Positions 3,230 to 55,466 of a DNA stretch of 55,466 nucleotides are shown here, in pieces; within the stretch, counting starts at the first letter, position 1; every line of letters begins with the position of its first letter. The notes beneath the pieces were generated by a model. The model saw only the letters and a list, made by a program, of their open reading frames with translations. It was not told the origin of the DNA and did no database searches. The stretch is from Sporichthyaceae bacterium (GTDB lineage: Bacteria; Actinomycetota; Actinomycetes; Sporichthyales; Sporichthyaceae), in NCBI GenBank assembly GCA_036493475.1, contig DASXPS010000116.1, positions 1 through 55,466 on the forward strand. Direction: 5' to 3'. The translations under genes and the position numbers were made by a program.

Positions 3230-4074
3230 CCGTCACCGAACCCGACACCGTCATCGGCGCCCCTATCGGTCCCGGCTCCCTGACCTGGCGTTACCACGGG
3301 GACCGGCTCGGCCTGTTGTTGTTGTGGCGTACCGGCACCCTGCAGAACATGCACCCCGCGGTGAACTCCGCGCTGCAGCAGCTCTCGAACTTCTTCGACG
3401 ACCCGTGGGATCGGTTGTTCCGCTCGATCCCACCGATCGCCGGGGTCATCTACGACGAGAACGCCGAGGCCACCGCGGGAGAGGTGCGCGACTACCACCG
3501 CGACATCAAGGGCAGCGACGACGGGCACGGCCGACGCTGGTCGGCGCTGAACCCGGAGATTTTCTGGTGGACGCACGTCACGTTCGTCGAGGCGATCGTG
3601 GCGACCAATGAGTTCTTCGGCACTCCGCTCACTCTGGAGGAGAAGGACCAGTTGGTCCGTGAGGGGGTGACCTGGTGGCAGCGCTACGGGCTGTCCATGC
3701 GCCCAGTGGTCGAGACATGGGAGGAGTTCGACGCGTACTTCCAGCACATGCTGGAGCACGAGTTGGAGCACAACGAGACCACGCGCTGGGCGATGAGCGC
3801 GGGGGGCCAGGCCATCCCGGCTCCGCCCTATGTGCCGGACGTGCTGTGGCGGGTGCTGCGGTGGCCGACCATGAAGGCCAACGTGTGGCTGGGGGCGGGC
3901 CTGATGCCGCCCAGGGCCCGCGAGACTCTCGAACTCAACTGGACCGCGCGCGACCAACATGTGTTGGACGCGATGTCGTTCGTGATCCGTCAGGTCTGGC
4001 CGCGGCTGCCCGAACGCGTCCGTTACCAACCCCGCGCCTACGCGGCGATCCGTCGGGAACGCGACCCGGCCTGA
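3226..4074 (+). CDS. Oxygenase MpaB / DUF2236-family protein
   Basis: A 282-aa protein of the DUF2236 family, which includes fungal MpaB, latex-clearing protein and many actinobacterial members; characterised relatives bind haem b and oxygenate organic substrates. Diagnostic features are GSLTWRYHGD at the N-terminus, the segment HGRRWSALNPEIFWWTHVTF (about residues 100-119) with conserved His, Arg and Trp, and the following helix EAIVATNEFFGTPLT. The Ala/Arg-rich C-terminus ends without a membrane segment. It is translated from an ATG overlapping the TetR stop. It converges on the PLP-enzyme gene, with stops 3 nt apart. Substrate unknown. Confidence 0.85.
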   Translation: MTVTEPDTVIGAPIGPGSLTWRYHGDRLGLLLLWRTGTLQNMHPAVNSALQQLSNFFDDPWDRLFRSIPPIAGVIYDENAEATAGEVRDYHRDIKGSDDGHGRRWSALNPEIFWWTHVTFVEAIVATNEFFGTPLTLEEKDQLVREGVTWWQRYGLSMRPVVETWEEFDAYFQHMLEHELEHNETTRWAMSAGGQAIPAPPYVPDVLWRVLRWPTMKANVWLGAGLMPPRARETLELNWTARDQHVLDAMSFVIRQVWPRLPERVRYQPRAYAAIRRERDPA

Positions 4075-8979: not shown

Positions 8980-8993
8980 CCAGCACAACGCAC

Positions 8994-9029
8994 GTCGGGG
9001 CCGGAGCAGTTCGCTGCTCCGGCCCCGAC
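8994..9029. terminator. Strong bidirectional hairpin between hup and cofC
   Basis: A perfect 16-bp stem (8994-9009 with 9014-9029) closed by a TTCG tetraloop, between two convergent genes. There is no T-tract, as is common in GC-rich actinobacteria. It probably terminates transcripts from both sides. Confidence 0.85.
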
Positions 9030-9034
9030 GCAGG

Positions 9035-25087: not shown

Positions 25088-25358
25088 TAACTGGCGCGTG
25101 ACCTCGATCCAACTTGCTCGTTGAGGTCGGCAGAGGGAGTTGATCGTCAGATCGGCGTTTCTCCGCAAAGGGGACTTCGGTCCCTGGTCCCACCCGTTCA
25201 TCGCGCTGGCGGGCGCGCGAGCGGAACCGGGACCGCGGTGAACCCTCGCCCGGTGTCCCTCCTCCGGGAGACGGCACCGCCAGGGCGGTCGGTCGGCGGG
25301 CCTGACCGTCCCCAAGACGCGCTGGGGTGCTCGCAGGCGGGCGCGAGCACCCCAGCGC
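25088..25358 (+). ncRNA. Candidate structured RNA in the pre-smc region
   Basis: The segment begins just after an isolated -10-like TAGCTT (25077-25082) and ends at a strong 16-bp hairpin (25319-25358). In between are GACCTCGA/TTGAGGTC (25100-25107 with 25121-25128), a TTCG-capped stem GGGGAC/GTCCCT (25170-25185), and an arm GGTCCC/GGGACC (25186-25191 with 25229-25234) closed over an inner GTTC/GAAC pair. Overlapping frames look like shadows. No tmRNA, RNase P or SRP RNA landmark was recognised. It may instead be untranscribed repeat DNA. Confidence 0.35.
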
Positions 25359-25463
25359 TCGTCTCGGGGTCTCTGTGTGTGCGGAAAGCGCACACCTACT
25401 CGCCTCGCATCACAGAGCGACGCTCCGCGTCGCGAACGGGTCGCGGCGCTTCGCGCGCGACCC
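25319..25463. repeat. Array of four consecutive near-perfect hairpins
   Basis: Four inverted repeats follow one another: a 16-bp perfect stem (25319-25334 with 25343-25358); GTGTGCG/CGCACAC around GAAAG (25377-25395); GCGACGC/GCGTCGC around TCC (25417-25433); and an 11-bp stem with one bulged G (25438-25463). The first could end a transcript. Four in 145 bp exceed what one terminator needs. Confidence 0.85.
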
Positions 25464-25550
25464 CTACGCGCCTGGCGACACTCCGCGCGTGCACTCCGCC
25501 GCACGCCGCCCGCCGCCCGCACGCCCCGCGCCCCCGCCGCGCGTCACGCC

Positions 25551-25666
25551 GCCCAGAAGGTCACCGCCTGGGTGACCTCCCGCCGCGCGCCCACGCCGCG
25601 CGCCCAAGCCGCCTACCTATCGCGCCCAGAAGGTCACCGCCTGGGTGACCTCCCGCCGCGCGCCCA
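25551..25666. repeat. Two direct copies of a hairpin-containing segment
   Basis: A 43-bp segment at 25551-25593 recurs almost exactly at 25624-25666, a period of 73 bp. Each copy contains the perfect 8-bp inverted repeat AGGTCACC-GCCTG-GGTGACCT (25558-25578 and 25631-25651). No coding potential was accepted here. Confidence 0.9.
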
Positions 25667-25787
25667 AGCCGCGCGCGCCCACGCCGCGTGCGGTCTACCG
25701 CGGCCATGGATGCGAGTTGCGCCCAGTGGGGCGATCGCGGCGCCTCTGGTGTCACTGACGTCGCGACCTGCATCTGGGGTCGTGGCG

Positions 25788-26046
25788 CCCCAAGCTTGAC
25801 CAGCCCCAGGAGCCTCAGCCGACCCACCACCCCCGCACCTGACCCACCGCCCAAGCCCGCCCCCGCCCCCGCTCCAGGCCGCTCTGACCGTCGCGTGGGC
25901 CAGGCGTAGGACCCCCTCGTTCCCCGCCCGCCCCAAGCTTGACCAGCCCCAGGAGCCTCAACCGCCCCACCGCCCGCACCTCACCCACCGCCCGAACCCG
26001 CACCCCGCTCCAGGCCGCTCTGACCGTCGCGTGGGCCAGGCGTAGG
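25788..26046. repeat. Two direct copies of a segment of about 120 bp
   Basis: Copy 1 runs about 25788-25910 and copy 2 about 25931-26046. Both start CCCCAAGCTTGACCAGCCCC and end GTGGGCCAGGCGTAGG. Copy 2 lacks a few bases in its C-rich middle. The near-identity of the two ends suggests recent duplication. The frames across it are Pro/Arg-rich and look non-coding. Confidence 0.9.
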
Positions 26047-26065
26047 AGCCCTGGGTCGCCCCGCT

Positions 26066-26182
26066 CGCTCATTCATGATCTGCGGGTGCTCTCTCATACG
26101 CCGGGCGTCATTGCGAGCGCCATTTCGGGCCCAAGAGTGACGCTTGGCGTATGACAGTCCCCGCTCCAATCATGAATGAGCG
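26066..26182. repeat. Long imperfect palindrome upstream of smc
   Basis: Outer arms CGCTCATTCATGAT (26066-26079) and ATCATGAATGAGCG (26169-26182) match over 14 bp. Inside them, a second pair of 22-bp arms (26092-26113 and 26135-26156) matches at 18 of 22 positions, with core TCATACGCC and GGCGTATGA. The loop is about 21 bp. The whole can fold as one cruciform or RNA hairpin. It is less GC-rich than its surroundings. The inner core recurs at 55447-55466. Confidence 0.9.
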
Positions 26183-26240
26183 GAGGGGAGGGGCCGTCCG
26201 GCGATCACTTTCGCCTCATTGGTATCGGCGTGGTGCGGCA

Positions 26241-26271
26241 TTCGGTGTGGCGTTATGTCAGCGGCTAGTGT
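26241..26271 (+). promoter_or_regulatory. Candidate smc promoter
   Basis: TAGTGT (26266-26271) fits TAnnnT and lies 31 nt before the smc GTG. TTCGGT (26241-26246) is a weak -35 at 19 bp. The palindrome ends about 60 bp upstream. Confidence 0.35.
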
Positions 26272-26301
26272 CGGGCGGAGCCGACTCGGGGGACACTGTC
26301 C

Positions 26302-33717: not shown

Positions 33718-33752
33718 AACGGCCCGCCCGGCACCCTGCCGGGCGGGCCGTT
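33718..33752 (+). terminator. Terminator after glnK1
   Basis: A perfect 16-bp stem (33718-33733 with 33737-33752) closed by CCC, 12 nt after the glnK1 stop. There is no T-tract beyond the two T at the end of the arm. It separates the two amtB-glnK cassettes. Confidence 0.88.
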
Positions 33753-54592: not shown

Positions 54593-55438
54593 GTGGTGAC
54601 GGCAGCTTCGCCGGCCAAGAGTCCCGGTCGAGCCGGGCGCAATCTGCCCGCCGCGATCGGTGTCGGCGTCGGGCTGGGCGGCACCGTCATCGCGTGTCTC
54701 GTCATCTCCCGGGCCGCGTTCGTCGCGCTGGTGTCCATCGCGGTGCTCATAGCGGTGTGGGAGCTGACCTCCGCGATGGCCACCAAGAATGTGCGCGCCC
54801 CGCTGGTGCCGCTGGCCATCGGCTCGGTGGCGATGTTGGTCGCGGCCTACCAAGGCGGCACCGAGTCGCTGATGGTCGGGCTGGTACTCACCACGCTCGC
54901 GGTGGTCGGCTGGCGGTTGGTGGACGGCCCCGACGGGTTCGCCGCGGACATCACCGCGGGGGTGTTCACCGCGGTCTACGTGCCGTTCCTGGCCGGCTTC
55001 ACGATCCTGATGAACGCCCCGCACGACGGGGCGCGGCGGGTGGCCACCTTCGTGATCGTGGTGGTCTGCAACGACGTCGGCGGCTACGCGGCGGGCGTGT
55101 TATTCGGCAAGCACCAGATGGCGCCGAAAATCAGCCCGAAGAAGTCCTGGGAGGGCATGGCGGGCTCGCTCATCGCGTGCGCGGCGGGCGGCGCGATCTG
55201 CGTGATCGTCATGATCGACGGCGGCTCGTGGTGGCAAGGCGCGCTACTGGGCCTGGCGTTATCCGTGGCGTCGACCGTCGGCGACCTCGGCGAATCCGTG
55301 CTCAAGCGCGACCTGGGCGTCAAGGACATGGGCACCCTGCTGCCCGGCCACGGCGGCATCATGGACCGCCTGGACTCGCTGCTGGTGGCCGCGCCCATCG
55401 CCTGGCTGTTGCTGGCCGCGATCGTCAACCCGCGCTGA
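54593..55438 (+). CDS. cdsA: Phosphatidate cytidylyltransferase
   Basis: A 281-aa multi-pass membrane enzyme that makes CDP-diacylglycerol from phosphatidate and CTP. Seven or eight hydrophobic segments are visible. The signature is the C-terminal ASTVGDLGESVLKRDLGVKD ... LPGHGGIMDRLDSL, with the catalytic Asp residues. PKKSWEGMAGSL is also conserved. The start is GTG 18 nt after frr. It is the last gene in the window. Confidence 0.96.
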   Translation: MVTAASPAKSPGRAGRNLPAAIGVGVGLGGTVIACLVISRAAFVALVSIAVLIAVWELTSAMATKNVRAPLVPLAIGSVAMLVAAYQGGTESLMVGLVLTTLAVVGWRLVDGPDGFAADITAGVFTAVYVPFLAGFTILMNAPHDGARRVATFVIVVVCNDVGGYAAGVLFGKHQMAPKISPKKSWEGMAGSLIACAAGGAICVIVMIDGGSWWQGALLGLALSVASTVGDLGESVLKRDLGVKDMGTLLPGHGGIMDRLDSLLVAAPIAWLLLAAIVNPR

Positions 55439-55446
55439 ACGCCGCC

Positions 55447-55466
55447 ACTGTCATACGCGCAGCGTC
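55447..55466. repeat. Copy of the pre-smc palindrome core, cut by the window end
   Basis: ACTGTCATACGCGCAGCGTC matches the reverse complement of the inner arm of the pre-smc palindrome (26138-26157) at 18 of 20 positions. The element continues past the window end. It starts 9 nt after the cdsA stop. Confidence 0.7.

Follow-up and report, generated by a model that had tools for sequence, protein, structure and literature searches.

A 117-bp palindrome lies upstream of smc at positions 26066-26182 of the window, the whole 55,466-nucleotide stretch of Sporichthyaceae DNA analyzed here. What kind of element is it, and what placed it there? An inverted-repeat scan ranked it strongest in the window, with 45-nt arms that are 78% complementary and spaced 27 nt apart. 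Its predicted fold has an energy of -85.5 kcal/mol (z = -7.2 relative to shuffles). Re-measurement bore out the perfect 14-bp outer arms described in the original prediction. The gene names smc and cdsA come from reading translations, with no family search behind them.

Architecture and dispersal of the palindrome

The smc-upstream copy has a modular layout on the forward strand. A 5' outer module at its T-type end (26066-26093) consists of the near-palindrome GCTCATTCATGATC (26067-26080) and a linker, TGCGGGTGCTCTC. The left core arm, TCATACGCCGGGCGTC, occupies 26094-26109 and is followed by a variable 29-nt loop (26110-26138) with a weak ATTTTsGGGCC..GGCCCsAAAAT dyad. The right core arm, GACGCTTGGCGTATGA, and the A-type end CAGTC span 26139-26159. 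An optional second outer module (26160-26182) terminates in AATCATGAATGAGCG; such a module gives two hairpins and is found in 10 of the 27 standard copies in the genome.

The core motif was also predicted to recur at the window end, after cdsA, and to be cut there. This copy is genuine. A second element occupies 55446-55466 on the reverse strand, where the contig end cuts through it, leaving the A-type end CACTG and a core arm, TCATACGCGCAGCGTC, inside the window. The copy lies 7 bp past a stop codon. Its remainder lies on contig C133 (142-213), which carries the loop, the partner arm (171-186) and the outer hairpin (200-213), so that the reverse-oriented element has its hairpin toward the C133 side. 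The end of the window's contig, C116 (window 55326-55466), is the same sequence as L043 1-141, the start of C133. These shared ends indicate that the assembly broke at the palindrome repeat and that the two contigs are neighbors. The three core instances counted originally are therefore two arms of one element and one arm of another, and the window holds two elements.

We searched the surrounding genome (G000; 4.27 Mb in 217 contigs) for further copies. A two-arm pattern allowing up to three mismatches matched 23 sites, compared with none for a reversed control pattern, and the family comprises 28 two-arm copies in all, so its recurrence is not due to chance. The core arms, TCATACGYnnnGCGTC, are nearly invariant; their start-to-start distance is 45 bp in 24 copies, with the others at 44 or 46 bp. 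The 29-nt loop is mostly constant in length and varies in sequence. Zero-mismatch matches to the outer 14-mer SCTCATTCATGAKC occur in G000 only at elements of this family. Two pairs of copies, on contigs C59/C194 and C32/C215 (the latter in opposite orientation), have nearly identical loops at unrelated sites, which shows that the whole core was copied.

The copies are directional. Despite their symmetric look, their ends usually differ, with a T-type end (GAGYTCTS) opposite an A-type end (SAGTG). Among the 27 standard copies, 22 are asymmetric, and the outer hairpin is found at the T-type end in all 22, including all 12 that have one hairpin. The other five have like ends and one hairpin.

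The 28 copies are intergenic, as had been claimed for those in the window, except that two overlap ORF ends by 23-55 nt; these placements rely on crude gene calls from a simple codon-based gene finder. The neighboring genes are convergent at 10 copies, co-directional at 13 and divergent at 4. Target-site duplications, proposed earlier as a check, were not found in 27 copies, where words shared by both ends were no longer than in shuffled pairs. The suggestion of a MITE-like dispersed element is borne out by the 28 intergenic copies, by the two close-duplicate pairs and by absence at the smc-upstream interval of relatives (described below), and fails on target duplication.

A structured RNA was considered and rejected. 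Variable positions in the left and right core arms show no covariation (one compensatory pair was seen), so single-strand fold-back of the whole core gains no support, and the element has no match in Rfam. A search for exact relatives among 84,980 named genomes, from which near records of G000 itself are perhaps absent, returned just one chance-like hairpin, adjoining the atp genes of a Sphaerobacter MAG. Weak model matches in four distant genomes (G060, G143, G032 and G225) were judged unrelated or due to chance.

The palindrome-flanked gene in related genomes

The palindrome family also exists in a form that carries a gene. On contig C82 of G000, a 318-aa gene lies between two inverted palindrome copies with their hairpins facing outward. 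The same two-palindrome layout surrounds a homologous gene on contig C112 of a relative, G001. The G001 gene is split over two frames, and dispersal in that genome may therefore be past. The genes beside the unit differ between the two loci, and in G001 the counterparts of the genes flanking the G000 unit are separated by about 450 bp that contain no unit. The unit thus sits at different places in two species of the genus. G000 contains at least two more gene-palindrome pairs, on C214 (L173) and C182 (L178); their palindromes are unrelated, and each has dispersed copies.

We compared two further relatives, G002 and G003, that share about 92% identity along a syntenic stretch. G003 carries a whole 1,307-bp palindrome-gene-palindrome unit on contig C40, and the corresponding flanks in G002 are 3 bp apart. 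The empty site in G002 looks like a very small interval separating two convergent genes, and the ends of the unit at this empty/filled site are the palindromes. This difference reflects either a gain in G003 or an exact loss in G002. G003 likewise has a solitary palindrome, about 95 bp long, that the 92%-identical G002 sequence lacks. Palindrome copy number also varies beside a unit that both genomes share, where G003 has extra tandem copies relative to G002. We conclude that the palindrome-gene-palindrome arrangement is a discrete mobile unit of about 1.3 kb, and its mobility is well supported.

The window's own palindrome is absent from the smc-upstream interval of all four relatives (G001, G002, G003 and G004). 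Family-related elements with altered arms are present in G001, G003 and G004. The relatives' smc-upstream interval (window 25434-26301; L140-L143) contains other palindromes, for example of the GGATCAACGTTGTGACT type in G004 and the GCACTGGAGATGACATC type in G003, which suggests an insertion-tolerant region. Two variant forms were seen in G001: a tandem half-arm array (CACTCTCATACGCAGGACGTCATCGTAGGAG) adjoining a full element on contig C4 (L095, near 3900-4071), and a copy without a loop that retains a 50-nt core (L098, 5174-5223).

The encoded protein and its pairing with palindromes across the class

The protein encoded by the unit, P0001, matches AbiEi models weakly, including those of PADLOC. 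Among 35 homologs, domain matches were to AbiEi_4 (28), DUF559 (13) and REase_MTES_1575 (11). Ten residues are invariant in all 35 (R143, D147, E207, D239, E250, D252, G253, K256, R274 and R287), among them the conserved nuclease residues E207, D239, E250, D252 and K256. An AlphaFold2 model of P0001 (pLDDT 91.7) aligns over residues 1-199 with Streptococcus agalactiae AbiEi (6y8q; Z 11.5) and over residues 204-312 with the catalytic domain of I-Bth0305I (Z 11.7), followed by 3hrl (10.9) and Vsr (9.7). As modeled, P0001 combines an AbiEi-like winged-helix DNA-binding part with a nuclease of the Vsr/I-Bth0305I type whose catalytic residues are conserved. Inverted repeats of 23 bp are bound by AbiEi proteins (PMC7319586), and the AbiEi-like part of this predicted nuclease protein likely binds the palindrome. 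The alternative first offered for the palindrome, a binding site, is partly retained in this form; a pure site does not explain the mobility of the unit.

In our view, the window palindrome probably represents a non-autonomous copy of a mobile element, and the product of the AbiEi-nuclease gene is its likely mobilizer. The gene-carrying form would run hairpin, palindromic core, gene, palindromic core and hairpin over about 1.3 kb, with the palindromes inverted. The AbiEi-like winged-helix part would recognize the palindrome, and the Vsr/I-Bth0305I-like endonuclease would cut at or beside it. Strand transfer or host repair could then place a copy of the unit, or of a palindrome by itself, between genes, often directly past a stop codon.

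An operator or marker role for the palindromes would place the AbiEi-type protein in service of the host, as a regulator or defense nuclease, with another, unseen enzyme having spread the repeats. AbiEi proteins are indeed autoregulators that bind inverted repeats in their own promoters (PMC7319586), and the PADLOC matches of P0001 fit such a role. The repeats, however, flank the gene on both sides and mostly sit elsewhere, often at gene ends, and the unit ends coincide with palindromes at the empty/filled site. An operator-only role does not fit palindromes that flank the gene on either side and recur at unrelated sites. No toxin-like neighbor is apparent beside the G000 unit: translations of the adjacent genes, read by eye at this locus only, resemble ABC-transporter and endonuclease III-type proteins. 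We regard this explanation as unlikely.

The structural match of the nuclease part raises the idea of homing, in which the nuclease would cut intergenic or palindromic targets and the unit would be copied in by recombinational repair, not transposed. The best match is the catalytic domain of a homing endonuclease, target duplications are missing, and the additional palindromes arrayed in tandem next to the G003 gene, relative to G002, would also suit this route. It is nevertheless very improbable, as copies occupy unrelated intergenic sites without common flanks and the empty site in G002 has no palindrome. The gene also differs from homing endonuclease genes in that it lies in no group I intron or intein and is free-standing between two genes at the empty/filled site.

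We examined whether the pairing of gene and palindrome extends across the class. A further 69 genomes of the class were searched, and homologs of P0001 turned up in 51. In G000-G004, each close homolog lies between a pair of inverted repeats, mostly palindromic, and the palindrome type switches with the subtype of the enclosed protein. Flank inverted-repeat scores reached 30 or more at 37 of 54 homolog loci, compared with none of 122 ordinary genes of similar size taken from G000 and G001 only; at a threshold of 25, the counts were 43 of 54 and 1 of 122. Most of the repeats flanking the 37 loci are palindromic. The 17 homolog loci scoring below 30 have no clear flanking repeat.

Dispersal accompanies this pairing. 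We searched 17 flanking palindromes, ten belonging to the order and seven to other families, as two joined queries. Among the matches listed, 16 of the 17 have extra copies in their own genome beyond the flanks of their gene, and these counts are lower bounds, as scoring covered up to 40 candidates per genome; for the remaining one, L160, a model search turned up a related copy on contig C7 of G003. For each of the seven distant genomes, all matches listed are to its own palindrome. Within the order, palindrome similarity tracks that of the proteins (r = 0.65, p 0.0005); between families this correlation is absent (r = 0.08, p 0.13), which indicates rapid palindrome turnover.

Comparison with known mobile systems

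The arrangement resembles that of REP/REPIN sequences and their RAYT (TnpA-REP) enzymes, in which one enzyme gene lies between inverted palindromes (PMC3733652, PMC2817692, PMC3116915). The likeness extends to the many lone intergenic palindromes favoring gene ends and to the presence of several gene/palindrome pairs per genome. The two systems differ in their enzymes, an AbiEi protein with a Vsr-like nuclease here and a Y1/HUH transposase, the defining enzyme, in RAYTs, and in their repeats, which here are about 70-145 bp long and carry no GTAG tag. That tag is absent from the consensus of 27 copies, and CGTC lies within the core arm instead of forming an unpaired tag at the end. A CGTC class of REPs has been reported without a dedicated transposase (PMC3733652). 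We conclude that the system works like REP/RAYT with an unrelated enzyme.

The palindromes might instead be ordinary terminators or REP-like repeats dispersed by a RAYT or by an insertion sequence, with AbiEi-nuclease genes merely inserting in or near them. Copies are found mainly between convergent or co-directional genes, as REPs are (PMC3733652), and some insertion sequences target REPs (PMC1525189). Several observations make this reading improbable. G000 has no match to Y1_Tnp (PF01797), and on that ground a RAYT was rejected as the mobilizer. Within the order, palindrome type tracks the subtype of the enclosed gene, with inverted repeats on both sides. Finally, the empty site in G002 lacks the whole unit, palindromes included, so the unit there did not insert into a pre-existing palindrome.

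Other known systems share individual features with the mobile unit. Its N-terminal part has the fold of AbiEi antitoxins (type IV AbiE; 6y8q, Rv2827c), which also bind inverted repeats, but here that fold is fused to a nuclease and encoded by a single gene in a mobile unit, with no toxin neighbor apparent by eye at the G000 unit. Vsr-like endonucleases (I-Bth0305I, Vsr, DUF559, REase_MTES_1575) share the fold of the catalytic domain and its conserved acidic and lysine residues, whereas the gene described here is free-standing, is paired with dispersed palindromes and, judged by context, is not a mismatch-repair gene. MITEs and ERIC/IRU elements are likewise palindromic, non-coding and intergenic, at about 120 bp, and have larger gene-carrying relatives; unlike them, our element shows no target-site duplication, and its gene-carrying relative has no known transposase.

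We found no publication in the open-access literature that links AbiEi or DUF559 genes to dispersed palindromes, and no open-access publication that treats DUF559 and AbiEi together. On balance, we lean toward the view that these units form an undescribed, class-wide group of transposable elements. Their mobilizing enzyme would combine AbiEi and Vsr-like parts and involve no DDE, HUH, tyrosine or serine recombinase; the group would be a source of dispersed palindromes in many actinobacterial-type genomes. REP-like palindromes that have no known enzyme have long been puzzling, and a widespread gene family labeled as abortive-infection antitoxin or DUF559 is now tied to palindromes across many families of the class. 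If the link is causal, P0001 and its homologs represent a new type of mobile-element enzyme, many 'AbiEi' defense annotations need re-reading, and the gene/target pairs are directly testable.

The window also contains repeats of other kinds. The long gap preceding the smc-upstream palindrome holds direct repeats (25790-26050; CCAAGCTTGACCAGCCCCAGGAGCCTCA... and CCAGGCGTAGGA) spaced about 136 bp apart. Perfect short-loop hairpins whose arms measure 16-17 bp are present at 8993-9030, 25319-25358 and 33718-33752, and these are probably terminators.
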